A stretch of 51,744 bases of DNA from a virus, in the IMG/VR virus record IMGVR_UViG_3300046690_000688, positions 1 through 51,744 of that record; one strand, written 5' to 3'. Below, one piece after another: positions 22,206 to 36,074 of the stretch; position 1 is the stretch's first letter, and every line of letters begins with the position of its first letter. The position numbers and the translations under genes were made by a program. Under the pieces are notes generated by a model that did not search any database, was not told the origin of the DNA, and saw only the letters and a list, made by a program, of their open reading frames with translations.

Positions 22206-22433
22206 ATGGCGAAGCAGAAGCAGACAGGACCAGATCCAAAGTTCACCGTTCCTATCGGCACCGAGGGCGCCCCTCTGGAGATCATCTACGGGCATAATAC
22301 GGTGGTCAAAAAGGTGCTGATGCAGTTCAATTTGCTCACCAGCAGTTTGATTTTGACGCCGGAAGATGCCCGCGACGTGGCGCGCAAATTGCTCCATTAT
22401 GCTGACATGGCCGACGGAAAGAAGGCCATGTGA
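22206..22433 (+). CDS. Small protein, 75 aa, unknown function
   Basis: Ribosome binding site AAGGATGG before ATG 22206. The polar N-terminus is followed by a compact part (E-I-I-Y-G-H-N-T-V-V-K-K-V-L-M-Q-F) and a helix (P-E-D-A-R-D-V-A-R-K-L-L-H-Y-A-D-M). No family recognised. It opens the enzyme cassette that follows, and its stop overlaps the methyltransferase ATG. The 87-nt gap before it holds only the duplicated gene end described at 22085. Confidence 0.68.
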   Translation: MAKQKQTGPDPKFTVPIGTEGAPLEIIYGHNTVVKKVLMQFNLLTSSLILTPEDARDVARKLLHYADMADGKKAM

Positions 22434-22999
22434 TGCTTGCACTCACACGCTTTCCGAAGTCGGCAGCATTTCTCAAGGATGAGCGTCTTCGCAAGGTAGC
22501 GAAAGCACGGCTTGACAAGCGTCTGCACGGGAAGAAGGGCATCCTTCTTGACATCTCCTTCGGCGGAACGACGCAGGCGCGGAGCGTCACGCTTGGTCCG
22601 AAGGGAGACATCAAGCAGGTTCCGACGGCACTACCATTCAAGTTGCCTAACACATGTGTGCATACAGCGGTCGTCACGCACGTGTTGGAATTCTTGAATC
22701 CTGAACGCTACTTTGAGTGGTGGAACGACCTGCACCGCGTGATGCTGAAGGATGGCATCGTCTACGTGAGCGGCCCCTACGGCGGCGATGAGAGTCAAGG
22801 CTGGCTCTCGGACCCCACGCACCGTATCCGCATCGTCGAGCAGAGCTTCGCGTGGCTCGACCCGCAGACGCCGTTCTACGCGCTGCACGAAGCACGTGGG
22901 CGCAAGACGCCGCTTCCGTGGAAGACGTTGACCGTGGCGCGGGTGCCTGGCGCGCACGGCACGGTGACGTATAACGTGACGATGCAGGCGGTGAAGTGA
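22433..22999 (+). CDS. SAM-dependent methyltransferase-like protein, 188 aa
   Basis: Resembles class I methyltransferases of the Methyltransf_11 type: I-L-L-D-I-S-F-G-G, then D-I-K-Q-V-P-T-A-L-P-F-K, V-V-T-H-V-L-E-F-L-N-P, and L-H-R-V-M-L-K-D-G-I-V-Y-V-S-G-P-Y-G-G. The glycine-rich SAM loop is atypical (no clear G-x-G-x-G near the start), so it might be a degenerate or non-canonical enzyme. ATG start overlaps the preceding stop. The substrate is unknown; neighbours suggest small-molecule or sugar modification. Confidence 0.7.
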   Translation: MLALTRFPKSAAFLKDERLRKVAKARLDKRLHGKKGILLDISFGGTTQARSVTLGPKGDIKQVPTALPFKLPNTCVHTAVVTHVLEFLNPERYFEWWNDLHRVMLKDGIVYVSGPYGGDESQGWLSDPTHRIRIVEQSFAWLDPQTPFYALHEARGRKTPLPWKTLTVARVPGAHGTVTYNVTMQAVK

Positions 23000-24333
23000 T
23001 GGACATCCGCACAATCACCGAACTCTCCAAGCTGCTCGGCTCGCGCCGCCCGAAGAGCGTCTACGAGATCGGCAGCCTCAACATTAACGGCAGTGTCCGG
23101 ACCCTCTTCCGCGACGCGAAGGAGTATCACGGCATCGATCTCGTGGAAGGTCGCGACGTCGACGCTGTCGCAGACGGCGCCACCTATGAGCCGCCCTTCC
23201 GCCCAGACTGCATCGTCTGCTGCGAAGCGTTCGAGCACACGCCGAACGTCGAGGCGATCGTCAAGCGCATGGCGGAGGTCGTCGTTCCCGGCGGCATCGT
23301 GCTGATCTCATGCGCTGGTCTGCAGCGACCGCAACACAGTGCCGTAGACGGCCTTGAACTTCCCGACGGTGAATACTATGCAGGCGTCGATCACCTGAAG
23401 CTGACCGAGTGGATGAAGGAGGCCGGCCTCGTCAACCTCCGTCTGACACTTGGATGTCTGCCTGATACGCCTGACCCGGATGTGCAGGGTGCACATGACA
23501 TCTACATGATCGGGCAGAAGCCGATCGGAGCGCTGGCCGACGCATATGACCCGGTCACGCCGAAAGACATCGCCACGCCGAAGCAGCTGACCGTCGTCGA
23601 GCAGGGCAAGACGACACTCGAGGAACTCGCGCAGGCCGTGCTCGATACGCGGGCGAAGCATGGCGACGTACTCCAGGCCTATCACGAGGTCTGGTACAAC
23701 GCGCCGCATACGTGGAGCTACACGCAGTTCCTAAACATCGGCGTGATGAAGAGTCCGAACGACATGTGGGTCTACCAGGACATCATGGTGAACCACAAGC
23801 CGCAGACGGTCATCGAGACCGGGACGTATCAGGGCGGATCAGCGCTGTGGCTCGCCTCGCTAGCTGACTTGATGGGGATCGACACGAAGATCTTCACCAT
23901 CGACATCAAGGACTTCCGGCGCTGCGCGCATCCACGCATCACGTTCATCCGAGGTGACTCGACAGACCCAGGTTTGGCAGCGGATCTTGCTAAGCAGGTT
24001 GAAGGATCGCTGCTGGTAATCCTCGACGCGGATCATTCTGCCGAGCACGTGCGGAAGGAGCTTGAGCTGTACGCGCCGCTCTGCAAGGTCGGCGACTGGC
24101 TCGTCGTCGAAGATACGAACATCGCGTGGCCGGGCGAGCAGGGCGACCGCGGTGCAGCGGGAGGGCTGGCCGATTACCTCGCGCAGCACCCTGGAGAGTG
24201 GCAGCAGGACATCCTGTCAGAGCGGTTCTTGTTGACGATGAATCCCGGTGGGTGGATGCGCCGCGTCGGTGTCTACAGGGAGTTCTACTACGAAGGCGAA
24301 CTAGAGAAGCAGCAGCTGGAGAGTGTGAAGTGA
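22999..24333 (+). CDS. Fusion of methyltransferase and CmcI-type hydroxylase/methyltransferase domains, 444 aa
   Basis: The N-terminal ~175 residues form a class I methyltransferase (S-V-Y-E-I-G-S-L-N-I-N-G; C-C-E-A-F-E-H-T-P-N-V; V-P-G-G-I-V-L-I-S). The C-terminal ~240 residues match the cephalosporin hydroxylase family CmcI, itself a SAM-binding Rossmann fold: V-I-E-T-G-T-Y-Q-G-G-S-A-L-W-L, I-F-T-I-D-I-K-D, L-L-V-I-L-D-A-D-H-S and W-L-V-V-E-D-T-N. Despite its name, CmcI-like proteins in phages and polysaccharide clusters usually act as methyltransferases on sugars. ATG chosen at 22999 (TGATG overlap). Confidence 0.82.
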   Translation: MDIRTITELSKLLGSRRPKSVYEIGSLNINGSVRTLFRDAKEYHGIDLVEGRDVDAVADGATYEPPFRPDCIVCCEAFEHTPNVEAIVKRMAEVVVPGGIVLISCAGLQRPQHSAVDGLELPDGEYYAGVDHLKLTEWMKEAGLVNLRLTLGCLPDTPDPDVQGAHDIYMIGQKPIGALADAYDPVTPKDIATPKQLTVVEQGKTTLEELAQAVLDTRAKHGDVLQAYHEVWYNAPHTWSYTQFLNIGVMKSPNDMWVYQDIMVNHKPQTVIETGTYQGGSALWLASLADLMGIDTKIFTIDIKDFRRCAHPRITFIRGDSTDPGLAADLAKQVEGSLLVILDADHSAEHVRKELELYAPLCKVGDWLVVEDTNIAWPGEQGDRGAAGGLADYLAQHPGEWQQDILSERFLLTMNPGGWMRRVGVYREFYYEGELEKQQLESVK

Positions 24334-25289
24334 AGTGGACAAAAGAGGCGGCCATCGCGCATCGAGAGCGCGTAGATGAACGCGCCAACCGCAAGGCGGA
24401 CGTCGAGAAGCGTGACTGGGCGGAACACAAGCACGCGCGAAAGCTGAAACGAACAAAGTCCATGCTCGGCGAGGTCTCGAAGGGCATCTTCGTGAACCCG
24501 GTCAACCCGAAGACCGCCGAGAATCAGGTGCAAGTCCTCCTCGGCACGCCGACGCTCGGAACCGTCCGCATCGAGTGGCACAACATGATGAAGGGCATGG
24601 TCAGCCCGCCGAACTGGTCGCTGATCACCTCGACGCCGACCGGCTATACGGTGCCGGACGCCCAGAACATGCTGGTCGATACGATGCTGCGAGGCAACCT
24701 CCGAGCACTCCTGCTGATCGAAGATGATACATGCCCGCCTCCGCACGCCATCCTGACGTTCGACCGGTGGTTCTGGAAGATGGAGCGGAAGCTGGCGCCG
24801 CCGGTCGTGAGCGGCCTCTATCACATCAAGGGCAGCGCGGAGGTGCGTAATGGGAAGAAGGGTGGTGTCGAACTGCTTGGTCCTGAGCCGCTCGCGTATC
24901 GAGGCAGTGGTCAGAGAGCGTTTAGAGACTGGAAGATGGGAGACGTTATCTGGGTTAGCGGTGTCCCTACTGGTGCATTATTGCTTCACCGCTCCATCCT
25001 CGAAGCGTGGGCGAAGGAGCCGGACGTCGAAGAATACGCGGTGCCAGGTTATCCGCACGTCATGAAGCGGATCTTCCAGCAGCCGTCGCACGTCTGGGTG
25101 GATCCTGAGACGAAGGGCGTGCACGTCGCGTCCGGTACGTCAGATCTTTGGTGGTCGGAGCAGACGATCAAGCGCGGACTGCTCGCAAAGGCTGGGTGGA
25201 AGAAGTACGCGAAGAAGGAGTTCCCATACATCATCGACACGGGCATGCACTTCAAGCACATCGATCGTGCTAGTGGGATGATGTACTGA
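24330..25289 (+). CDS. GT-A glycosyltransferase-like protein, 319 aa
   Basis: GTG start in a GTGA overlap. A basic helical lead (~60 residues) precedes a GT-A-like fold: V-Q-V-L-L-G-T-P-T-L-G-T-V, then N-M-L-V-D-T-M-L-R and L-L-L-I-E-D-D-T-C-P-P, where the E-D-D fits the metal-binding DxD position. Further on are V-S-G-L-Y-H-I-K and G-A-L-L-L-H-R-S-I-L-E. Donor and acceptor are not predictable. Coupled to the methyltransferase and GNAT genes, so part of one modification pathway. Confidence 0.65.
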   Translation: MKWTKEAAIAHRERVDERANRKADVEKRDWAEHKHARKLKRTKSMLGEVSKGIFVNPVNPKTAENQVQVLLGTPTLGTVRIEWHNMMKGMVSPPNWSLITSTPTGYTVPDAQNMLVDTMLRGNLRALLLIEDDTCPPPHAILTFDRWFWKMERKLAPPVVSGLYHIKGSAEVRNGKKGGVELLGPEPLAYRGSGQRAFRDWKMGDVIWVSGVPTGALLLHRSILEAWAKEPDVEEYAVPGYPHVMKRIFQQPSHVWVDPETKGVHVASGTSDLWWSEQTIKRGLLAKAGWKKYAKKEFPYIIDTGMHFKHIDRASGMMY

Positions 25290-25894
25290 TGGTCACGACA
25301 ATTGCGTGCCCTGTCTGTACCAAACCACGCGAGGAAGATTCGCCATGTTGGTGGTGTGAGGATGGCCTTTCGAAGACGAAGCACTCGTGGAGTTGGAAAG
25401 GTTGTGGCGTGTGCCACGGATCTTGCCATGGAGTTCCATTGCACTTTGTTCTCGTGCCCATGGCCGTCGAGGACGTGCCGTCGCTCTTCGCGTGGTACCT
25501 CGAAGATCCACCTGCGCTGTGCAAGGATAAGACGTTCGAGATCAACTGGCTCTACAAGGTTCAGGCAGACGAGAGTCAGTGGCGGTATTCCATCCGCGCG
25601 GATGGAGAGCTTGCTGGCCTGGCGACGTTGTGGTGGAACAAGAGCGTTCCGAACACACTGTCTCCGACGATCCTGGTCGCTCCAAGATGGCGGAACAAGG
25701 GCGTCGGAACGCTGGCGCTGATCACGCTGGTCGATGTTGTTGCTGGAAGCATGCCGAACGTCACGCTGCTCGGCCAGGTCAATGACGATAACCCTGCATC
25801 GCTGCGGATGGCTGAGAAGGTCTTCGGGCCTGGAACGCATGAGGGAGATAAGGTCTCGTTCTTGATGACGTTCAGGCAAGAGGTGACACCTTGA
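25289..25894 (+). CDS. Zinc-ribbon plus GNAT-type acetyltransferase, 201 aa
   Basis: An N-terminal zinc ribbon with C7-x2-C10, C20-x2-C23 and C39-x2-C42 is fused to a GNAT domain (~55-200): V-P-M-A-V-E-D-V-P-S-L-F-A-W-Y, L-A-G-L-A-T-L-W-W, and the acetyl-CoA loop region V-A-P-R-W-R-N-K-G-V-G-T-L-A-L. The R-x2-G-x-G/A signature appears as R-N-K-G-V-G. It would transfer an acyl group, perhaps to a sugar amine or protein. ATG in a TGATG overlap. The order MT - hydroxylase - GT - GNAT is that of a sugar-modification cassette. Confidence 0.75.
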   Translation: MVTTIACPVCTKPREEDSPCWWCEDGLSKTKHSWSWKGCGVCHGSCHGVPLHFVLVPMAVEDVPSLFAWYLEDPPALCKDKTFEINWLYKVQADESQWRYSIRADGELAGLATLWWNKSVPNTLSPTILVAPRWRNKGVGTLALITLVDVVAGSMPNVTLLGQVNDDNPASLRMAEKVFGPGTHEGDKVSFLMTFRQEVTP

Positions 25895-26046: not shown

Positions 26047-26296
26047 CAACATCGGCATCGCGGATCTCGTCTTCGTCGAGATGCAAGAGTGCGCACCGCT
26101 CGATACCGTTATCGAAGAGCAGGTGCATTCAGTAGACGCCGTGCACCCAAGCAACGTGCTTGCCGGCACGACGCATCGCGACTGTGGAGGAACCGTACGC
26201 TGGGAGTACGAATCAGGTAAGCCGATCGAGTTTGGGCACGCGTGTTGCATGAAGTGTGGACAGGTGGTGACAGTGAAGGGCTCGCTAGTTGGCTGA
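26036..26296 (+). CDS. Small protein with zinc-ribbon-like end, 86 aa
   Basis: ATG 26036, GGAAG upstream, overlapping the Cys-rich gene by 11 nt. After an acidic N-terminal half, C50 and then C70/C71-x2-C74 (G-H-A-C-C-M-K-C-G-Q-V-V-T-V) form a likely zinc knuckle. The last codons overlap the TTG of the repeat protein. Function unknown; possibly a partner of the enzyme cassette. Confidence 0.65.
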   Translation: MATDNIGIADLVFVEMQECAPLDTVIEEQVHSVDAVHPSNVLAGTTHRDCGGTVRWEYESGKPIEFGHACCMKCGQVVTVKGSLVG

Positions 26297-29200
26297 TCTC
26301 TCAGTTGTCGTCGTCGCCGCGACACTTGCGCTCTCGGAGACTGTCTCTCCGAGTGGCCTCGGGAGTAGGACGCGCTTCTACTTCCCGAACAGTGGCACCG
26401 CGGCCGTCTCCCCGTCTGCAGGGACGGGTTGGAATGACACGACGCAATTCGATCGAGTCGCACTGGCTCGTAGCCATAAGAACGAGACTGGCGTCACCAA
26501 GACCGAGATCTTCAACGGTTCCGTTCCTGCCAATGTGCTCATGCGGCAGTTCGTCTCAGAGCCGCTTGCCGCGCAGACAATCTCCGGGTCCGTCAAAGGT
26601 CAGCTGCAGGGTATCACCAGCCAGGTCGCGAAGCTCGGGTCGCTGTCAGTCCGCCTCCGCATCGTCAAGAATGACGGGTCTGACTATAATCCAGTCAAGG
26701 ATCTGACGCCTGCGCCGACTGCCGGTGACGCCGTCGCTGCACCGCCGCAGTTCAGCACGACGCTCACGAACCGCTCGCTAAACAATATTCTCGAGCAGTC
26801 GACGATCGGCATCACGCCACAGGTGGTCGTCAAGGGCGACCGACTCGTCGTCGAGATCGGCGTGCTTGATACCGTCGCGAACGCTACACGAACGCTCGGC
26901 GTGAGCTTCGGCGGTACGACGGTCACGGACCTCGCCGAAGATAACACGACGACGACCGTCAACTACCCCTGGATCGAGTTCAATACGCCGATCCTGATGG
27001 CGGAGTTCGAGCAGCTCGTACTCTCTGAGACGGTCACGGCGAAACGCTACGGCGATGCGACGCCGGATGCAGAAGTCCTCCGGCTCTCGGATACGGTCAC
27101 CGTCACGCGCGATCTTGAGACTGGTACGCCTTCTGAGACGCTCAAGTTATCTGACTCAGTTTTACCTCAGATCACGGTATTCGTTCCTGCAGAAACTCTA
27201 CATCTTTCTGACACAGTTACAGCGCTTCGTATAGGCGACCTCTCTGTCGTTGTAGCGTCCGAAACGTTCCACCTAACAGATGGTGGCGCAGCTGGCCAGC
27301 ATGGAATCGTCCGGCTTGAAGGCACGCTCAAGATCGCTGATGGACCTCCAGTTGCGGCACTTGATTTCAACGTCGCGCCGAGTGAAGTTGTTCATATCAC
27401 TGATTCGGTCGCTGCATTTATCGCGGGTCCTACAGACCTCACAGCGAGTCTTACTGAGACGCTGAAGCTCTCCGATACGCCATTCGAGACGCTCAACCCG
27501 ATTCAGACTGCTCCATCTGAATCACTCCGGCTGACCGATACCGTCTTCACGACACTCGATCCGCTTCAGACGACCAAGACAGAGACCCTTGTCCTGACAG
27601 ATGGTGGTGCCGTCAGTCAGCAAGGTGTCGTCGATCTTGAAGGCGTCCTGCGCGTCATCGACGGTCCGCCTGTTGCTCAACTGGTCGGCACGGCAGGCGA
27701 CCTGAGCACGTCGCTGACGGAGACGCTCAAGATCTCCGAAAGCGTTCAGACTACGCTCGACCCGTTGCAGGCGACGCCGTCAGAGATCGTTCACGTAACG
27801 GATACCATCTTTGAGACGCTCGATCCGCTAGAGACATCGCGGACTGAGACGCTCAAGATTACTGACACGGTATTTGAAACGCTCGATCCGATTCAAGCTG
27901 CACCGACAGAGATTGTTCACGTCACGGATACTGTAACACCGACTCTCGACCCGCTGCAGGCGTCTCCGTCCGAGATTGTTCATGTAACTGACACTGCTAC
28001 ACCCTCGCTCAATCCGTTGCAGGCTACCCCGAGTGAGGTAGTCCACATAGCGGACACGCCGTTCGAGACGCTCGATCCGCTACAGACCTCGCTGAGCGAG
28101 ATCGTTCACGTCACGGATACCGTCTTCGCTTCACGCGACCTGACTGTTAGTGGCATCGACGAGACGCTCAAGCTGACGGATGCAGTCTTCGAGACGCTTG
28201 ATCCGTTGCAAGCAAGTCCGTCTGAGATCGTTCACGTTACTGATACGCCGACGCCGACGCTGGATCCTCTTCAGGCGACGCCATCAGAGACCGTTCACGG
28301 CGCCGACGTTGTTACTCCAGCGCTGGAACTGTCAACATCGCTGCAAGAGATCGTCCATGTCAGTGAGACGATAACTGCCGTCACGGATGCGCTTGCAACG
28401 CCTCAGGGTGAGACTCTCCGGATCACTGACACCGTCACTGCCAAGCGGTATGGTGATGCGACGCCTGCTGCTGAGCAGCTTCGGATCACGGACAGTGTCA
28501 CCGCAATCCTCGACCTGATCGTTTCCCTCCAGGAGACGCTGAAGCTCTCAGAGGAGCAGGCTGTCGTCATCGGTTCAGGCGTCTTCACTAATGAAACGCT
28601 GAAGCTGTCGGATACGGTATTCGTCACACTCGACCCGATCGAGACGAGTCAGTCAGAACCGCTGAAGCTCTCCGAGACTGTTACACCTGCCCTGCAGCTG
28701 GCGGCAAGCGCGCAGGAGACGCTGAAGCTCTCTGAGGAGCTGTTCGACTTCATCAATCCGGAGATCGCCTCTCAGACAGAGACGCTCAAGCTGACAGATA
28801 CTGTCTTCGCTGCCGTCGAGATCAGCGCGTCGCAGACGGAAGCGCTGAAGCTCAGTGATGCGGTCTCTGTCACGCTGGATCCGTTGAACGCGACGCCGTC
28901 GGAGACGGTTCATGTCGCCGATACGCTCTTCGCCAGCGTCGACCTTGCGACGAGCCTGGCAGAAGTCGTTCACGTTTCTGATGCGTCATCGCAGACGCTA
29001 TTCCCAGAACAGACGCAGCCAGCAGAAATCTTACGGCTGACAGATAGTGTCATCGCAAGTCTTGGCGACATTGCAGCAGCACCGGAAGAAGTTGTTCACC
29101 TTTCTGAGCAGCTCTTTGTCAGTCGCGACCTGATCGCCTCGCTACAAGAGACGTTGCGTGTAACAGATGCAGTCAATGCGGACGTCGATCTTGCTACGGA

Positions 29201-29513
29201 AGTCGTAGAAAATCTAGTACTGACGGACTCGGTCGCCACGCTACTTGATCCGCTTGAGACGAGTCCGTCAGAACAGCTTGTCCTTGCGGATGGCGTAACC
29301 ACGTCGCTTGACCTGGCCGTCGCGCTGCAAGAGAGTCTCAGAATTCATGATACGGCCTCTGGACTGGTCTTTGTTCCGCAGATCGTCCGCATCCATGTGG
29401 TCGGCAACTATCGTCCGACGGTCGATGTGGTTGGCAACGTGCGCAAGACGGTGAGCGTGGTCGGTAACGTGCGCAAGACGGTCTCCGTAACCGGAAGCTG
29501 GAGTGATGCCTGA
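26289..29513 (+). CDS. Giant repeat protein, likely tail fibre or surface appendage, 1074 aa
   Basis: TTG start with GAAGGG 9 nt upstream, overlapping the previous gene by 8 nt. Residues ~1-235 are a globular beta domain (R-T-R-F-Y-F-P-N-S-G-T-A-A-V-S-P-S). Residues ~236-1030 are about 38 units of ~20 residues with core E-(T/I)-(L/V)-(K/H)-(L/V)-(S/T)-(D/E)-T-V and linker (T)-L-D-P-L-x3-P-S, alternating 'ETLKLSD' and 'EIVHVTD' flavours. Residues ~1030-1074 hold shorter V-V-G-N-x-R-x-T-V repeats. Solenoid/fibre-like repeats on phages bind host surface sugars or space other domains. The same unit reappears three times at the C-terminus of the 46345-49041 protein, so the two probably interact or derive from each other. 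Ser/Thr in the repeats are plausible acceptors of the neighbouring transferases. Confidence 0.75.
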   Translation: MADLSVVVVAATLALSETVSPSGLGSRTRFYFPNSGTAAVSPSAGTGWNDTTQFDRVALARSHKNETGVTKTEIFNGSVPANVLMRQFVSEPLAAQTISGSVKGQLQGITSQVAKLGSLSVRLRIVKNDGSDYNPVKDLTPAPTAGDAVAAPPQFSTTLTNRSLNNILEQSTIGITPQVVVKGDRLVVEIGVLDTVANATRTLGVSFGGTTVTDLAEDNTTTTVNYPWIEFNTPILMAEFEQLVLSETVTAKRYGDATPDAEVLRLSDTVTVTRDLETGTPSETLKLSDSVLPQITVFVPAETLHLSDTVTALRIGDLSVVVASETFHLTDGGAAGQHGIVRLEGTLKIADGPPVAALDFNVAPSEVVHITDSVAAFIAGPTDLTASLTETLKLSDTPFETLNPIQTAPSESLRLTDTVFTTLDPLQTTKTETLVLTDGGAVSQQGVVDLEGVLRVIDGPPVAQLVGTAGDLSTSLTETLKISESVQTTLDPLQATPSEIVHVTDTIFETLDPLETSRTETLKITDTVFETLDPIQAAPTEIVHVTDTVTPTLDPLQASPSEIVHVTDTATPSLNPLQATPSEVVHIADTPFETLDPLQTSLSEIVHVTDTVFASRDLTVSGIDETLKLTDAVFETLDPLQASPSEIVHVTDTPTPTLDPLQATPSETVHGADVVTPALELSTSLQEIVHVSETITAVTDALATPQGETLRITDTVTAKRYGDATPAAEQLRITDSVTAILDLIVSLQETLKLSEEQAVVIGSGVFTNETLKLSDTVFVTLDPIETSQSEPLKLSETVTPALQLAASAQETLKLSEELFDFINPEIASQTETLKLTDTVFAAVEISASQTEALKLSDAVSVTLDPLNATPSETVHVADTLFASVDLATSLAEVVHVSDASSQTLFPEQTQPAEILRLTDSVIASLGDIAAAPEEVVHLSEQLFVSRDLIASLQETLRVTDAVNADVDLATEVVENLVLTDSVATLLDPLETSPSEQLVLADGVTTSLDLAVALQESLRIHDTASGLVFVPQIVRIHVVGNYRPTVDVVGNVRKTVSVVGNVRKTVSVTGSWSDA
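26998..29370 (+). repeat. About 38 tandem ~60-nt protein-coding repeats
   Basis: Counting by the core E-x-(L/V)-x-(L/V/I)-x-(D/E), I find about 38 units; unit lengths vary around 17-27 codons. Two flavours, 'ETLKLSD' and 'EIVHVTD', partly alternate between 27.7 and 28.3 kb, where near-identical unit pairs imply recent homogenisation or unequal crossing-over. Confidence 0.8.
29391..29500 (+). repeat. Short V-V-G-N-x-R-x-T-V repeats at the protein end
   Basis: Ten-codon units V-V-G-N-(Y/V)-R-(P/K)-T-V-(D/S) occur three times in tandem, with a diverged fourth (V-T-G-S-W). DNA of the last two full units is nearly identical. Confidence 0.75.
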
Positions 29514-29888: not shown

Positions 29889-30497
29889 ATGCCGTTAGTC
29901 ATCGATGCAACTGTCGGGGGAGTCGCTTCAAACAGTTACGAGACGCTGGCCGAGGCGCAGGCGTATTACGAGTCACGTCTGCCGCTATCCGGGTGGGAAG
30001 ACGCGGACAGCCAAGACGTGCTGCTGGTCATGGCCACGAGGCTGCTCGAGAACTTCGCGAACTCGCTGAAGGTCCTCGTGCCGGCACAGAATGGCATCGC
30101 GGCCTACTACCTCATCGAGCGTCGATGGACCGGGATGCCAGCCACCGCGACACAGAAGCTCTCGTGGCCGCGCATCGGGATGTATGATGTCAACGGGAAT
30201 CTGATTCCGGAGACCGTCATCCCTCAGGAGCTGAAGGACGCCGAGTCAGAGTTCGCCGGGCAGCTTGGCCTTACCGACCGCACACTGGACAACGACGTGA
30301 TCGTGCAGGGATTAACCTCGGTTAAGGCGGGCAGTGTGGCGCTGACGTTCAAGAATCAATTTCAGCCGCAGGTCGTGCCTGACGCGGTGCTGAACCTGCT
30401 GCTGCCAGGTTGGCTGACCGACGTGGTTGTCGAGCCGGCCGTGCCTGCGCTGTTCGACGTCGTATCTGGTCCACGTCATCATGGAGGCTGGTGGTGA
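29889..30497 (+). CDS. Head-tail adaptor (DnaT-like / connector) protein, 202 aa
   Basis: Pattern of the phage neck family with an A-N-S-Y-x-T-L-x-E-A-x-A-Y-Y opening: here S-N-S-Y-E-T-L-A-E-A-Q-A-Y-Y, followed by L-L-V-M-A-T-R-L-L-E-N, L-S-W-P-R-I-G-M-Y-D-V-N-G-N and I-P-Q-E-L-K-D-A-E-S-E. Such proteins attach to the portal ring as the first neck ring. The C-terminus is longer than needed and ends in R-H-H-G-G-W-W. Strong context: next is another neck protein. Confidence 0.8.
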   Translation: MPLVIDATVGGVASNSYETLAEAQAYYESRLPLSGWEDADSQDVLLVMATRLLENFANSLKVLVPAQNGIAAYYLIERRWTGMPATATQKLSWPRIGMYDVNGNLIPETVIPQELKDAESEFAGQLGLTDRTLDNDVIVQGLTSVKAGSVALTFKNQFQPQVVPDAVLNLLLPGWLTDVVVEPAVPALFDVVSGPRHHGGWW

Positions 30498-30877
30498 GCA
30501 TCCTTGATGCGCTGCGTGCTGGCGTGAAGGTTGCAGACAAGGTGACGAAGCCTCTGCAGCCATCAGTCTCCTTCGAGCGCTACCTGAGCGAGGATGGATT
30601 CGGTACGCGCACCTATGCATCAGCCGTTTCGCTGAAGGCGATCGTCGAGCATAAGCAGCGGAACGTGAGCACGATGACCGGTGAGCTGGCCGTCAGCCAC
30701 GCGTATGTCATGTTCCTGGACATCGCCGCATTGGTGATCGCGACAGCAGGGGACGGCGTGGACGTGAACGATAAGATCACGCTGCCGAACGGCGTGACCG
30801 GACCGATCTTGAACTTCGACGGCTTCGTAGATGCCGGAACTGGACAACCACTTGCGACGGAGATATACCTCGGATGA
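30494..30877 (+). CDS. Neck / head-completion protein, 127 aa
   Basis: GTG start in a GTGA overlap. The core reads R-Y-L-S-E-D-G-F-G-T-R-T-Y-A-S-A-V-S-L-K-A-I-V-E, then V-M-F-L-D-I-A-A-L and a beta-rich part ending G-P-I-L-N-F-D-G-F-V-D. This short beta-barrel-like layout (S-V... K-A-I-V-E... D-K-I-T-L) is typical of the second head-tail joining ring. Position right after the adaptor supports it. Confidence 0.7.
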   Translation: MSILDALRAGVKVADKVTKPLQPSVSFERYLSEDGFGTRTYASAVSLKAIVEHKQRNVSTMTGELAVSHAYVMFLDIAALVIATAGDGVDVNDKITLPNGVTGPILNFDGFVDAGTGQPLATEIYLG

Positions 30878-30987
30878 TCTGGTTCAAACTTTGGCTACTC
30901 GCTATGCGGCATGGGCTATGGAGAGATCCAGTGGCTAGTGCATTGACGTTCTTGAGAAGTATAAAACTTGCATTGGTGGTCCGATGA
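30874..30987 (+). CDS. 37-aa hydrophobic peptide coupled to a radical SAM gene
   Basis: ATG 30874 overlaps the neck gene stop and its own stop overlaps the radical SAM ATG (ATGA at both ends), so it is embedded in the translational chain. Product: M-I-W-F-K-L-W-L-L-A-M-R-H-G-L-W-R, then A-L-T-F-L-R-S-I-K-L-A-L-V-V-R. It is amphipathic and rich in Trp, Leu and Arg. It could be a membrane peptide, a mere coupling ORF, or a substrate of the next enzyme. Confidence 0.5.
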   Translation: MIWFKLWLLAMRHGLWRDPVASALTFLRSIKLALVVR

Positions 30988-32057
30988 CCTTCATCGACTC
31001 TCGTCATAAACTCTTCGGCCACCTCGACAGGCTCGTCGGGTGGCAGCAGGGTGAGCATCCTTCTCCAGTAACGGTCGAGTGGGACCTCTCGAACCGCTGC
31101 GCGCTCGGGTGCATGGACTGTCACTTCGCGCACACGCATACGCGCGGTCCGTGGGCGAGCAAGCCGCGCATCCTGCCGATGGCTTATGACTCAGGTGGTG
31201 ACCTGGCTGACATCGACGTCGTCCGACGCGGTCTGGACCAGATGGCGCGTATCGGTGTCAAGGGCATCGTGTGGAGTGGCGGCGGAGAGCCGACGACGCA
31301 TCCGCGATGGCAGGATGTCGTCGACTACGCCTCGTCGCTCGGTCTGCAGCAGGGCATGTATACGTTCGGCGGACTGTTCGATGAGCGGTCGGCGACACAC
31401 CTCGCGCGGCATGCTGAATGGGTCGTCGTGTCGCTTGACGCGCCAGACGAGCATACCTACGCGCACGAGAAGGGCGTGCAGTCGTCACGGTTCTTTGCCG
31501 CCTGCGACGGTATCGGGTGGTTGGCGCAGGTGAAAAAGGCGACCGTCGGTGTTTCGTTCCTCTTGCACGCGGATAACTGGACGCGGGCGGGCGAGATGCT
31601 GTCGCTGGCACGAGCACTTGGCGCAACCTACATCACCTTCCGTCCAGCCGTTCGCACAACGCCAGACTCGCCATCAAGGTGTACTGACGACCGCTCGTGG
31701 ATCACCGCCGCGCTGCCGAACCTGAAGGACTACGAGAGCGAGCCGGACGTCGAGTGCGACGTCGATCGGTTCTTGCAGTATCGAGATTGGACGACGCGGT
31801 CCTATTTGACGTGCCACGGCGTGAAGCTGACGACGACGATCACGCCGGACGGACGTCTATGGATGTGCCCGCAGCATAGAGGCGTACCTGGAAGTTGCCT
31901 CGGTGACCTCAAGACCGAGTCGTTCAAGGACATCTGGCATAGGCATGGCGGTACCTATACACAGTTTAACAACTGCCGCGTCATGTGTCGCTTGCACCTG
32001 ATGAACGAGACGCTTGCGCAAGTCTACGCGCAGCACGAGCATGGAGCATTTTTGTGA
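30984..32057 (+). CDS. Radical SAM protein with SPASM-like C-terminus, 357 aa
   Basis: C39-x3-C43-x2-C46 (N-R-C-A-L-G-C-M-D-C-H) binds the 4Fe-4S cluster that cleaves SAM. G-G-G-E-P-T at ~99-104 is the SAM-binding GGE motif. The C-terminal ~80 residues carry further Cys (T-C-H-G-V-K, W-M-C-P-Q-H, S-C-L-G-D-L, N-N-C-R-V-M-C), as expected for a SPASM/twitch domain holding an auxiliary cluster. SPASM enzymes modify peptides, proteins or sugars. Uncommon between phage neck genes; its neighbours are glycosyl- and methyltransferases. The substrate is not evident. Confidence 0.88.
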   Translation: MTFIDSRHKLFGHLDRLVGWQQGEHPSPVTVEWDLSNRCALGCMDCHFAHTHTRGPWASKPRILPMAYDSGGDLADIDVVRRGLDQMARIGVKGIVWSGGGEPTTHPRWQDVVDYASSLGLQQGMYTFGGLFDERSATHLARHAEWVVVSLDAPDEHTYAHEKGVQSSRFFAACDGIGWLAQVKKATVGVSFLLHADNWTRAGEMLSLARALGATYITFRPAVRTTPDSPSRCTDDRSWITAALPNLKDYESEPDVECDVDRFLQYRDWTTRSYLTCHGVKLTTTITPDGRLWMCPQHRGVPGSCLGDLKTESFKDIWHRHGGTYTQFNNCRVMCRLHLMNETLAQVYAQHEHGAFL

Positions 32058-32683
32058 TCAACGTCTGTATCACCGTGTTCAACCGTTACGACCTGCTTGC
32101 TCGCCTGTTCGCGTCGCTGGGCGCCAGCACGGTGCAGCCTGATGAGATCTACGTCATCGATCGCGGAAATGATTCCGTGCGTCTGAAGCATGCCGCCAAC
32201 GGACGCCCGTTCATCACAGTGCCGCTCGAAGGGCAGAGCCTCCCGGCAGCATGGAACTGGTTCATGTCGAACGTCGAGGAGGAGCGCATCATCGTCAGCG
32301 ACGACATCGAGTTCTTCCCTGAGACGTTGGAAACCTTCTTGAAGACGCCAGGTGACCTCGTCGGACTGGAGGATGGCAAGTCGAGTCACTTTGCCTGCTT
32401 CGCGCCGCGTAACAGCTGTATCAAGAAGGTCGGGTTCTTTGACGAGTTGCTGTCACCCGACTACATGTATTTTGAAGATAGCGACTACGGCCGCCGCATG
32501 CTCCTGTTGGGCATACCGATCGTCGGCATCTCGTGCATGCATCACGGCTTGGCGCAGTCGTGGGAGAAGAAGACGGAAGCGCAACGCAGCGATCACCATC
32601 GGCGGTTCATGATCGCGCAGGACAATTACATCAAGAAGTGGGGCGGCATCCCTGGGAAAGAGAAGAAGCATGCAGATCGGTAA
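32054..32683 (+). CDS. GT2-family glycosyltransferase, 209 aa
   Basis: GTG start in a GTGA overlap. The GT-A fold is evident: I-N-V-C-I-T-V-F-N-R-Y-D-L-L at the N-terminus, P-D-E-I-Y-V-I-D-R-G, a central I-I-V-S-D-D-I-E-F-F (metal-binding DxD equivalent), and Y-F-E-D-S-D-Y-G-R-R-M for the catalytic base region. It is shorter than most bacterial GT2 enzymes, as typical in phages. Overlaps the next methyltransferase by 14 nt. Confidence 0.82.
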   Translation: MINVCITVFNRYDLLARLFASLGASTVQPDEIYVIDRGNDSVRLKHAANGRPFITVPLEGQSLPAAWNWFMSNVEEERIIVSDDIEFFPETLETFLKTPGDLVGLEDGKSSHFACFAPRNSCIKKVGFFDELLSPDYMYFEDSDYGRRMLLLGIPIVGISCMHHGLAQSWEKKTEAQRSDHHRRFMIAQDNYIKKWGGIPGKEKKHADR

Positions 32684-33185
32684 CCTCTATCATCATCGCG
32701 TACTCGGAATGCTGGCGACACGAGCGCAAAGCTACCTTGAGATCGGCGTACAGGAGGGCGACTCGCTAGCAGCAGTCGTCGAGGCGAACAGGGAGATCGA
32801 CGTCACACTCTGCGACCCGTGGGATGCCAATCATGGTGGCACGAACCGTGGCTCACATAACCACATTCAGGAGCGCCTGAACACGCTCGCGCATCGTGGT
32901 AAGCGCTGCTATCTCGACGGATTCTCGTCCGTAGAGATCCCGAAGATCGACTGTCAGCACTTCGACCTTGTCCACGTTGACGGCGATCACTCCTACGAGG
33001 GGTGCAAGAATGACCTCAAGATGTGCTGGCAGATGACGTTACGCTACCTCGTGGTACACGACGTGTTCTTCCAGGAAGTGCGTGACGCGACGTTTCAGTT
33101 TCTCGAGTGGCACCACGCGGAGTTCGGTGAGGTATCGTTCTCCGCATCTGACCACGGGACTCTGGTGATCGAGAGGGAGCGATGA
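32670..33185 (+). CDS. Methyltransferase, Methyltransf_24 type, 171 aa
   Basis: Class I SAM-binding fold: S-Y-L-E-I-G-V-Q-E-G-D-S-L (motif I), V-T-L-C-D-P-W-D (motif II), F-D-L-V-H-V-D-G-D-H-S-Y-E-G (motif IV with metal-binding-like acids), Y-L-V-V-H-D-V. Proteins of this type often lie in polysaccharide clusters and methylate sugars. Overlap with the GT genes on both sides fixes it in the same operon. Confidence 0.82.
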   Translation: MQIGNLYHHRVLGMLATRAQSYLEIGVQEGDSLAAVVEANREIDVTLCDPWDANHGGTNRGSHNHIQERLNTLAHRGKRCYLDGFSSVEIPKIDCQHFDLVHVDGDHSYEGCKNDLKMCWQMTLRYLVVHDVFFQEVRDATFQFLEWHHAEFGEVSFSASDHGTLVIERER

Positions 33186-34426
33186 AAAAGCTCCTCTGGG
33201 TCGGCGATGCCTGCGTGAGTTCCGGGTTTGCACGCGCGACACACAACATCCTCGACACGCTGCGCTATGTCTTCGACGTCCAGGTGCTTGGTCTCTGCTA
33301 CAGTGGCGATCCGCATGACTATCCGTACAAGGTCTATCCCGCATATAGCGGTGGGGACGCGTTCGGCGTCGGACGCGTCAAGGACATCGCGGAGTCGTTC
33401 AAGCCGGACATCATCGTCATCCAGCAAGATCCGTGGAACTTCCCGCCATACCTCGAGCAGCTCAAGGGGGTCGACGCGCCTATCGTCGGGCATGTGGCCG
33501 TTGATGGCAAGAACTGCGCCGGAGAGAAGTTGCAGGGGCTGGCGGCTTGCGTCTTCTGGACGATATTCGGGGAGGCGGAAGCGAAGGTTGGAGGCTATGT
33601 CGGGCCGACAGAAGTCATCCCGCTGGGCGTCGATCGTAGCATCTACAAGCCTCTTGACAAGATAGAGCTGAAGGCGAAGATCATCGGTCCTGTCCTGGCC
33701 GTGCAGCATCTCCCTGCCGACTCATTCGTCGTGGGCGTGGTCGGTCGCAATCAGGAGCGCAAGCGCCTCGACCTGACGATCCGGTACTTCGCGGAGTGGG
33801 TGCGGACGCACAAGGTTGAAGATGCCTGTCTGTGGTGCCACGTGGCACCGACCGGCGATCAGGCGTATGACATGCACCAGCTCGTGAAGTATTACGGGAT
33901 GGGCGGTCGCGTGTTCGCGCCTTCTATCAATCCGGTCTACGGGCTGCCTGAAGCGTCGATGGCGAAGGTGATCAACCTGTTCGACGTGTTCTTCTCGACC
34001 ACGCAGGGCGAGGGCTTCGGTCTACCGGCACTCGAGGCGATGGCGTGCGGCGTGCCGCCCCTCCTGCCGGACTGGTCGGCGTATGGCGACTGGGCGCGGC
34101 GAGGTGCGACGCTCGTGCCCTGCTCATCGACCGCCGTGACGCCACACATCGGCGGCGCGGTGCTCGGCGGCATCATGGATGAGGAGAAGGCCGTCGAGAA
34201 GTTGCACTGCCTCTATGCGGAGAAGGGCCTGCGTGCGCGGCTGTCACGCCAGGCGCTGGACCTCGCGTCACAGCCCGAATTCCAGTGGCCGGTCATCGGG
34301 GATGCCTGGCTGAAAGTGCTCTCAGATGTGCTCCAGAACTGGCCAGGATTGGCTGTGGAAGCTGAAAAGGATGCTGCCGTGGCTAACCCCTTCCAGAGCC
34401 AGGCTGTGGCAGAGGTGGCATCATGA
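33182..34426 (+). CDS. GT4-family glycosyltransferase, 414 aa
   Basis: GT-B fold. The N-terminal domain opens K-K-L-L-W-V-G-D-A-C-V-S-S-G-F-A-R. The C-terminal donor domain has G-V-V-G-R-N-Q-E-R-K-R-L-D (187-197) and the E-x7-E motif in G-E-G-F-G-L-P-A-L-E (276-285), which binds the nucleotide sugar. Retaining mechanism expected. It begins in an ATGA overlap and its stop overlaps the tail-completion gene, which ties glycosylation to virion assembly genes. Confidence 0.9.
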   Translation: MKKLLWVGDACVSSGFARATHNILDTLRYVFDVQVLGLCYSGDPHDYPYKVYPAYSGGDAFGVGRVKDIAESFKPDIIVIQQDPWNFPPYLEQLKGVDAPIVGHVAVDGKNCAGEKLQGLAACVFWTIFGEAEAKVGGYVGPTEVIPLGVDRSIYKPLDKIELKAKIIGPVLAVQHLPADSFVVGVVGRNQERKRLDLTIRYFAEWVRTHKVEDACLWCHVAPTGDQAYDMHQLVKYYGMGGRVFAPSINPVYGLPEASMAKVINLFDVFFSTTQGEGFGLPALEAMACGVPPLLPDWSAYGDWARRGATLVPCSSTAVTPHIGGAVLGGIMDEEKAVEKLHCLYAEKGLRARLSRQALDLASQPEFQWPVIGDAWLKVLSDVLQNWPGLAVEAEKDAAVANPFQSQAVAEVAS

Positions 34427-34842
34427 AAGGCGCCAGCGAGATGATCGCGAAGGTCAGGCTGATCGCGAAGGGAGAGCCGAGTCGAGTAGGGGCAGCGCTC
34501 TACCTTGAAGGGCAGATTGAGATGACCGAGTCGAAGCGCCGCTGCCCCGTCTCACCGACCGCCGCGCAGTTCAAGGCGATGGGCCGGACGATGCCGAAGG
34601 GTCTGGTGCCTGGCACGTTGCGTGCGAGCGGGCAGGTGGCCGAGCCGGAATATCAGGGTAACAATATCTCCGTCACGCTGTCGTATGGCGGCGCGGCGAT
34701 CGACTACGCGATCGTGCAGCACGAGCGTCTCGACTATCACCACACGACGGGCCAGGCAAAATACCTTGAGAGCGTGATCAACGAATCACGGCCGTTCATG
34801 GCCGCGCGCCTTGCTGCGCGGCTGCAGTTGAAGGAAGGCTGA
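34423..34842 (+). CDS. HK97 gp10-like tail-completion / neck protein, 139 aa
   Basis: The sequence fits the gp10-like head-tail family: G-A-A-L-Y-L-E-G-Q-I-E-M-T-E-S-K-R-R-C-P-V at the helix, a G-T-L-R-A-S-G turn, and the signature Y-A-I-V-Q-H-E-R-L-D-Y-H-H-T-T-G-Q-A-K-Y-L-E. These proteins bind between connector and tail tube. It is separated from the other neck genes by the enzyme cassette, which therefore looks inserted. Confidence 0.85.
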   Translation: MKGASEMIAKVRLIAKGEPSRVGAALYLEGQIEMTESKRRCPVSPTAAQFKAMGRTMPKGLVPGTLRASGQVAEPEYQGNNISVTLSYGGAAIDYAIVQHERLDYHHTTGQAKYLESVINESRPFMAARLAARLQLKEG

Positions 34843-34940: not shown

Positions 34941-35137
34941 TGGAAATAATAACGACAATAAATTTGTATCAAGCTCTCAAGGATCAGGGCTTTGAAGTGC
35001 CGAAGGAGTGTCGAGAAGCTAGATTAGTTATGTCCGCACCAGATGAGCCGATAATGATCCAGTTTGATTGCTTCGTGTTAGGTGACGATCTCCAGAAGAT
35101 TGGTCGCGCTCTCGAGCAGTTGGGAAAGGTCAAGTAA
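34940..35137 (+). CDS. Small protein, 65 aa, unknown function
   Basis: ATG 34940 overlaps the stop of the zinc peptide. Product M-E-I-I-T-T-I-N-L-Y-Q-A-L-K-D-Q-G-F-E-V-P-K-E-C-R, then a beta pair (M-I-Q-F-D-C-F-V-L) and a helix. The DNA is visibly more A/T-rich than its surroundings, which may mean recent gain. No family recognised. Confidence 0.65.
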   Translation: MEIITTINLYQALKDQGFEVPKECREARLVMSAPDEPIMIQFDCFVLGDDLQKIGRALEQLGKVK

Positions 35138-35138
35138 C

Positions 35139-35543
35139 GTGCCCTTCCTCGATGAGATCGCCGCGAAGCTCGTGACGGCCAGCGTCGGCACGATCGGCTC
35201 GAACATCTTTCTCGGCTCGAAGGCGATCATCCCTGTCGGCAACGGGCCGTACCTCTCGCTGGTCGAGACGGGCGGTAGCGCGCCGACGCGGATTCAGAAT
35301 GTCGCTGCGGCGCACACGCAGCGCCCGACGGCGCAGGTATCGGTACGCGCAAAGTCGTATCAAGCGGCCAGGACGATGCTCCAGGCGGCATACGCGGCAC
35401 TTGACGGCACGTTCAACACGACGCTGAGCGGGACGTTCTATCAGAGTATCACAGCCCGACAGGAACCGACGGACGTCGGCCTTGACGATGCGGGCCGCGC
35501 GATGATCGTGTTCAACATAGAAGTTGAGAAGCAGCCATCATGA
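35139..35543 (+). CDS. Tail terminator / minor-capsid-like neck protein, 134 aa
   Basis: GTG start 1 nt after the previous stop, with AAAGGT upstream. The core, P-Y-L-S-L-V-E-T-G-G-S-A-P-T-R-I-Q-N, then Q-R-P-T-A-Q-V-S-V-R-A-K-S-Y-Q-A-A-R-T-M-L-Q-A-A-Y and A-R-Q-E-P-T-D-V-G-L-D, is the typical pattern of phage tail-terminator proteins that cap the tail tube at the neck. Next gene is the tube protein, as usual. Confidence 0.8.
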   Translation: MPFLDEIAAKLVTASVGTIGSNIFLGSKAIIPVGNGPYLSLVETGGSAPTRIQNVAAAHTQRPTAQVSVRAKSYQAARTMLQAAYAALDGTFNTTLSGTFYQSITARQEPTDVGLDDAGRAMIVFNIEVEKQPS

Positions 35544-35624: not shown

Positions 35625-36074
35625 ATGACGTTACCCCTGAGTGGACATGGTGCCAAGATCGAACGGGCACTAGCAGCGACTCCGACAGTCTTTGCCGAGA
35701 TCGCCGAGATCAAGGACATCACGCTGCCGGGCCTGGATCACAATGAGTTCGACGCGACCTCGCACAACCGGAATATCGACGCCTATGTCATGGGCGTCCT
35801 GCGCCGGGACTTGTTCACCATCAAGATGAACTTTCTGCCGAGCGACGGCTCGCAGGACCATCTGACGGGTCTGATCAAGGCGGCCATCACGAATCCCGTG
35901 CCGACGGACGGGTTCAAGATCACGTTCCCCGATAACACGAACGTGTGGGTCGCCAGCGGTCAGGTGAAGGCCGTGAAGAACATCGTGCTGCCAGTTGACG
36001 GGCTGTCGACGGCAGACGTTGAAGTCAGGTTTAGCGGGTTGATGCTCATCAACGGCGTGGTGATCGGCACGTAG
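35625..36074 (+). CDS. Major tail tube protein, 149 aa
   Basis: Excellent ribosome binding site (AGGAGAAGGCGA). The product is beta-rich with a I-A-E-I-K-D-I-T-L-P-G-L opening, a D-A-T-S-H-N region and an ending V-E-V-R-F-S-G-L-M-L-I-N-G, the form of lambda-gpV-like tube subunits. It polymerises on the tape measure into the tail tube. Position before the chaperones and after the terminator is canonical. Confidence 0.85.
   Translation: MTLPLSGHGAKIERALAATPTVFAEIAEIKDITLPGLDHNEFDATSHNRNIDAYVMGVLRRDLFTIKMNFLPSDGSQDHLTGLIKAAITNPVPTDGFKITFPDNTNVWVASGQVKAVKNIVLPVDGLSTADVEVRFSGLMLINGVVIGT

Follow-up and report, generated by a model that had tools for sequence, protein, structure and literature searches.

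The window analysed in this study is a single virus record of 51,744 bases (IMG/VR record IMGVR_UViG_3300046690_000688), and the element in question is a cassette of four open reading frames (ORFs) on the plus strand at 30984-34426, encoding a radical S-adenosylmethionine (SAM)/SPASM enzyme, a glycosyltransferase (GT) of family GT2, a Methyltransf_24 protein and a GT of family GT4. The cassette occupies a slot between neck genes of the virion operon, and the embedding of its glycosyltransferase genes there is as expected of a virion-glycosylation cassette. The features of the locus and the evidence for each are as follows.

29889-30497, plus strand: neck gene, head-tail adaptor Ad1, left flank of the slot (phrog_477, 4.5e-24; kept in relatives)
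30410-30877, plus strand: neck2, head-tail connector, whose stop is the left slot edge (phrog_3881, 3.1e-5)
30874-30987, plus strand: 37-codon ORF, coding status not established (sequence; comparison with relative L003)
30984-32057, plus strand: radical SAM/SPASM enzyme, 357 amino acids (PF04055, 5.2e-10; PF13186, 2e-6; cysteines; AlphaFold2 model; Foldseek)
32054-32683, plus strand: GT2 glycosyltransferase (PF00535, 2.6e-6; phrog_29879, 2.9e-19)
32670-33185, plus strand: Methyltransf_24, class I SAM methyltransferase (PF13578, 6.5e-12)
33182-34426, plus strand: GT4 glycosyltransferase, constant last gene of the slot (PF00534, 4.7e-10; phrog_2170, 9.8e-27)
34423-34842, plus strand: neck/tail-completion-like gene, right slot edge (conserved synteny; no family match)
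35082-35543, plus strand: head-tail connector (phrog_2595, 3.3e-10)
35625-36074, plus strand: major tail protein (phrog_158, 7.3e-7)

A first-pass annotation, made from the sequence alone, had named these four enzymes and neck genes on either side of them; Pfam matches to radical SAM plus SPASM, GT2, Methyltransf_24 and GT4 bear out the enzymes, and PHROG matches to Ad1 and a connector upstream and to a connector and the major tail protein downstream bear out the flanks. The overlapping starts that it described hold along the whole cassette once GT2 begins at its likeliest start, the GTG at 32054 that overlaps the radical SAM stop, and the GT4 stop in turn overlaps the start of the neck/tail gene at 34423. 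Its end coordinate (34426) stands, but the start had to be moved, as the radical SAM ORF begins at 30984 and not at 30874, where a separate 37-codon ORF (MIWFKLWLLAMRHGLW...) lies. This short ORF is joined by ATGA overlaps to the neck gene before it and to the radical SAM gene after it, and it fills an insertion of about 100 bp; near relatives lack the whole stretch, and in those whose radical SAM protein is 97% identical the neck gene and the radical SAM gene overlap directly, stop on start. It was considered as a precursor of a ribosomally synthesised and post-translationally modified peptide (RiPP) and rejected, near relatives being without it. The real start of neck2 lies more internal than the called one, the version in relatives having 126-130 residues.

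All four cassette genes are, by sequence comparison, under strong purifying selection (dN/dS 0.033-0.046 against L003), and near relatives carry the same four genes. GT4 retains an invariant E277-x7-E285 motif and is 46-51% identical to the GT4 proteins of relatives. No membrane segment was found in the proteins of the window's cassettes, the maximum 19-residue hydropathy being 1.63.

Near-identical relatives being uninformative about the slot, relatives were collected by searches with the capsid protein (57-73% identity) and with the neck protein, and the flanking genes are common to them. The slot could be read in about 40 relatives, those whose records extend far enough beyond the neck genes; their genes were called by simple ORF rules on contigs that may be incomplete, and the identities of their cargo genes rest on Pfam. 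The neck genes do normally adjoin, as had been proposed: five relatives have an empty slot, with -24 to +182 bp from the neck2 stop to the following neck gene in L190, L193, L208 and L215 and an overlap of these genes in L205. Comparison with these relatives identifies the enzyme cassette as an insertion between neck genes. GT4 alone fills the slot in L175, L184, L209, L214 and L216 (1.2-1.7 kb), and further relatives have GT4 together with GT2-type genes. Full blocks of up to seven genes (5-7.5 kb) combine glycosyltransferases and methyltransferases with one further enzyme, a C-methyltransferase or a B12-radical-SAM enzyme (L168, L169, L170, L172, L178, L182, L191, L195, L206 and L207), in the order GT2b, MT11, C-methyltransferase (Methyltransf_13/14) or B12-binding radical SAM, GT2c, GT2, GT2d, GT4. 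Exactly one of the two alternative enzymes is present per full block, interchangeable at one position, and the same swap is seen between an NDP-sugar C-methyltransferase (L070:13240-14478) and a B12-binding radical SAM enzyme (L074:11356-12978). Because they exchange at one position, the sequences suggest that the two enzymes perform equivalent carbon methylation. The slot of L187 and L204 carries deoxysugar genes, namely a cupin/FdtA-like gene and a DegT aminotransferase, followed by a GT4-type gene, an unassigned gene, a methyltransferase and GT4. In occupied slots GT4 is the final cargo gene ahead of the right-hand neck genes; in the distant L199 the neck and GT genes stand in a different order. 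As the window's SPASM enzyme occurs in the slot only within the window's close group, it seems to have entered a pre-existing GT2/GT4 slot late. Between the capsid and neck genes of one relative (L072:1981-2877) lies an MptE-like/DUF115 protein (PF01973), the domain of flagellin-modifying Maf transferases.

The radical SAM enzyme itself scores above the cut-off of PF04055 and retains the SAM-cluster motif C39-x3-C43-x2-C46 in 43 of 46 homologues, as a member of the superfamily should. Seven cysteines are conserved overall, the auxiliary ones being C277-x17-C295 and C331-x3-C335. The seven-cysteine SPASM motif, with its two auxiliary clusters, was not found in the enzyme, which keeps four auxiliary cysteines although PF13186 is above cut-off; because it is four that are conserved, the sequence suggests that one auxiliary cluster is bound by a twitch-like four-ligand set. 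An AlphaFold2 model (mean pLDDT 92.2, pTM 0.91) has SuiB, DesII, SkfB, BlsE, anSME and PqqE as the nearest solved folds in Foldseek. The core fold is common to SuiB, DesII, SkfB, BlsE and anSME and the window enzyme (probability 1.00), yet identities to these are only 13-18%, and the window enzyme has only four auxiliary cysteines and lacks a RiPP recognition element (RRE) part. The top fold and profile matches include the sugar-acting DesII and BlsE, and since the modelled matches span peptide- and sugar-acting enzymes, the fold by itself does not identify the substrate.

The phylogeny and genome-neighbour search that had been proposed for the SPASM protein were carried out, and the tree places it inside an all-viral clade of 15 rows with 100/99 support. 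A profile scan for the family returned 125 viral and five cellular contigs, a contrast which is biased by phage-derived search patterns and serves as an indication only, and tblastn on plasmids added four remote bacterial proteins at about 26%. The phages of the clade have a phrog_10 capsid as against phrog_771/264 in the window, and their typical gene order is tail-completion gene, GT2, radical SAM, GT-B (PF13524), major tail protein and tape measure. Other branches show GT4, GT2, a second radical SAM, radical SAM and a tail-completion gene, or a TerL-like gene, a GT2-like gene, radical SAM and portal. Among 26 dereplicated loci, a GT stands immediately beside the radical SAM gene in 20, whereas only 17% of the other genes there have an adjacent GT; a GT is no more than two genes away in 23, and 24 of the loci have virion genes at a distance of up to 6 kb. 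Taken together, the sequences characterise the family as mostly phage-borne and recurring beside glycosyltransferases within virion-building genes. Sugar-related genes also accompany it: a GDP-mannose 4,6-dehydratase-like gene adjoins it in L083, and epimerases, transketolases, pseudaminic acid genes and UDP-galactopyranose mutase surround remote relatives, which were found in a huge phage (L080), Lachnospiraceae (L157), Nanoarchaeota (L158) and Streptomyces and Solidesulfovibrio plasmids. The sugar cluster of L080 includes C-methyltransferase, epimerase and transketolase-like genes. In this 735-kb phage, at L080:7409-9627, the radical SAM gene sits between two transketolase-like halves inside the large cluster, and the gene set around it on the Nanoarchaeota contig is similar.

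Considering these observations, we favour, with a probability of roughly 0.6, the view that the cassette glycosylates a virion protein, with GT4 starting the glycan and the radical enzyme tailoring a sugar; the particles of these phages would then probably bear a coat of unusual sugars. The cassette, expressed late, would act on the virion protein in the host cytoplasm, where GT4 would initiate the glycan on the acceptor, GT2 extend it and the Methyltransf_24 protein O-methylate it, while the radical SAM/SPASM enzyme would alter the sugar or sugar nucleotide by radical chemistry (oxidation, epimerisation or deoxygenation); the neck slot would be a cargo site at which tailoring enzymes are exchanged. 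Here we infer late expression, the virion protein as acceptor, the order of the steps and the sugar as substrate of the radical enzyme. Virion glycosylation is supported by the series of slots from empty through GT4 alone to seven genes with GT4 last, by the mutual replacement of C-methyltransferase and B12-radical-SAM with exactly one per full block, by the adjacency of the radical SAM family to GTs near virion genes elsewhere, and by the lack of membrane segments in all cassette proteins. The sets among the head genes of other phages (GT4, GT2 and methyltransferase in S-CBS4 and phiPsal1, and the ctQWt234 set after a capsid gene, described below) also argue for it, as do the sugar-nucleotide clusters around remote relatives in cells and in the huge phage, DesII and BlsE among the best matches, and dN/dS of 0.03-0.05. 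Some results weigh against it: a search for acceptors among the C-terminal Ser/Thr tails of the major capsid, major tail and neck proteins gave no pattern tracking the cassette, no sugar-nucleotide biosynthesis gene was found in the window cassette, and the fold resembles the peptide-modifying SuiB, SkfB and anSME no less than DesII and BlsE.

The last of these points bears on another possible target of the radical SAM enzyme, namely the peptide chain of a virion protein, into which it might introduce, for example, a thioether, an epimer or formylglycine, either ahead of glycosylation or apart from it. Peptides are frequent substrates of SPASM enzymes, and the matches to SuiB, SkfB and anSME would fit, but the scores against NCBIfam equivalogs for RiPP, PqqE and mycofactocin maturases are far below every cut-off (best TIGR04317, 55.7 against 380 bits; PqqE, 41 against 381). 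Moreover, no N-terminal RRE part was found, the core beginning near residue 30 in the model, there is no conserved precursor ORF nearby, the 37-codon ORF being missing from near relatives, and the neighbours are GTs rather than peptidases or precursors, so that we regard such a direct role as unlikely. A sugar substrate is favoured because the slot exchanges C-methyltransferase, B12-radical-SAM and DegT genes, sugar-nucleotide genes are neighbours, and both an RRE part and a conserved precursor are absent. The first-pass annotation had left a choice between a radical-derived sugar and a peptide modification on virion proteins; a sugar role fits the comparative evidence, although the sequence does not settle between the two. 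It is conceivable, if improbable, that this mainly phage-borne radical SAM family acts on the virion glycoproteins themselves, for example by creating a carbon-carbon or other radical-made linkage or by an inversion on an assembled protein-bound glycan, so that phage particles would bear sugars or sugar-protein links not known from cells.

That the cassette serves phage DNA modification instead, with GTs glycosylating hypermodified bases and the radical SAM enzyme helping in base modification, appears doubtful. Glycosyltransferases do hypermodify DNA in other phages, according to the account of Pyle et al. 2024 given in PMC12619734, and L079, a distant radical SAM homologue, is encoded close to ParB-like and GT-like genes immediately ahead of terminase. 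Against this, thymidylate synthase (PF00303) was matched in none of 10 records (the window and nine relatives, which may be incomplete), while the control matched in 9 genomes; the window is without a C5-methylase, for which one relative among the 10 records gave a partial match; and the cassette is coupled to neck genes, the cargo of relatives including sugar C-methyltransferases and DegT. Tet_JBP (TET/JBP dioxygenase) matches were 0 of 10, but the control genomes gave none either. A change of the host surface glycan, by receptor masking or O-antigen change that excludes competing phages, would suit the resemblance of the slot cargo to surface-polysaccharide enzymes, and this reading has been given for the glycosyltransferase-rich variable regions of pelagimyophages with varying radical SAM cassettes (PMC7029224). 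We consider it a poor fit here, as the cassettes carry no membrane protein, flippase or polyprenyl-linked transferase, and hence no polytopic membrane protein of the gtrABC type; the neck cassette overlaps virion genes, presumably being expressed too late for most superinfection exclusion, and radical SAM/GT genes lie inside the virion modules of many unrelated phages.

Virion glycosylation as the role of the cassette invites comparison with known loci. In mycobacteriophage Corndog, gp35-gp38 include O-methyltransferase and glycosyltransferase genes which lie between those for the portal and the protease and for which capsid modification has been proposed (PMC4351075), and glycans at capsid and tail-tube C-termini of mycobacteriophages have been reported (Freeman et al. 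2023, as cited in PMC12619734). Corndog-type loci are alike in position among virion genes and in enzyme types, whereas a radical SAM gene is not mentioned for them and the window has a neck slot with exchangeable C-methyltransferase, B12-radical-SAM and DegT cargo; no mycobacteriophage homologue of the window GT4 emerged from tblastn. We judge the window cassette to be of the same kind as these loci in its position and enzyme types, the exchangeable radical-enzyme component being new. Synechococcus phage S-CBS4 and Pontimonas phage phiPsal1 have homologous GT4 and GT2 genes plus a methyltransferase among head or neck genes, but these triads lack radical SAM, and their methyltransferase is akin to one in a second cassette of the window and not to Methyltransf_24. 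The podovirus ctQWt234 (MW202801) carries radical SAM, GT2, PhyH, methyltransferase, NodB-like and GT4 genes after its capsid gene; its radical SAM protein is 25-27% identical, and capsid and gene set differ.

In pelagimyophages, radical SAM cassettes occur close to glycosyltransferases and vary among near relatives (PMC7029224). Their host-recognition clusters are variable, glycosyltransferase-rich and furnished with radical SAM cassettes as here, but lie in a myophage tail-fibre region and were read as host lipopolysaccharide modification (PMC7029224). In the literature searched for radical SAM together with phages and virion glycosylation, no paper was found to describe a radical SAM/GT set among virion genes. 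The view that a SPASM enzyme beside GTs is rarely reported in phages therefore holds for the literature searched, but the pelagimyophage cassettes (PMC7029224) and the 125 viral contigs speak against rarity as such. Virion glycosylation has been proved in few phages, and a small set of gene families now points to candidates for it among environmental phage lineages. The slot series from none through one GT4 to seven enzymes makes the question of which gene starts the virion glycan directly testable, and a largely uncharacterised, phage-concentrated radical SAM family tied to sugars points to new sugar chemistry.

The second cassette (cassette 1) lies upstream at 22430-25894 and consists of the following genes.

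22430-22999, plus strand: protein without family match (63-66% identical, and beside the double methyltransferase, in L070 and L071)
22996-24333, plus strand: double methyltransferase (PF04989, 2.8e-41; NF045824; blastp)
24330-25289, plus strand: conserved protein with an IEDDTCPPP motif (69-75% identical in relatives; no family match)
25289-25894, plus strand: GNAT acetyltransferase (PF00583, 2.3e-8)

The N-terminal half of the double methyltransferase is akin to the methyltransferases beside GT4 and GT2 in S-CBS4 and phiPsal1, and also to one adjoining the radical SAM gene in L096, while its C-terminal half is of the RMNT_CmcI/rhamnosyl O-methyltransferase type. The proposal that the neck cassette forms one pathway with this region (22433-25894) is plausible by this methyltransferase kinship, but the link is not obligatory, as cassette 1 is missing from L073 and L075, which retain the neck cassette. 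As a guess, the 24330-25289 protein may be a GT-A transferase; its predicted model has a mean pLDDT of 35.6. The segment 25432-25898, covering most of the GNAT gene, is absent from the otherwise close relatives L003-L005.

Downstream of cassette 1, 26289-29513 encodes a Thr/Ser-rich protein of 1074 residues (14% T, 9% S) with 15 matches to [ST]E-x-[LV]-x-[LIV]-[ST]-[DE], many of them 21 residues apart. It is 29-30% identical in L070 and L071 and was not found in L073 and L075, and its sequence makes it a candidate O-glycan acceptor for cassette 1. A further protein of 954 residues (10339-13203) has a C-terminal head-morphogenesis match and, near residues 573-613, a weak RNA 2'-phosphotransferase match (phrog_5470), which possibly reflects a head-borne ADP-ribosyl-type domain.

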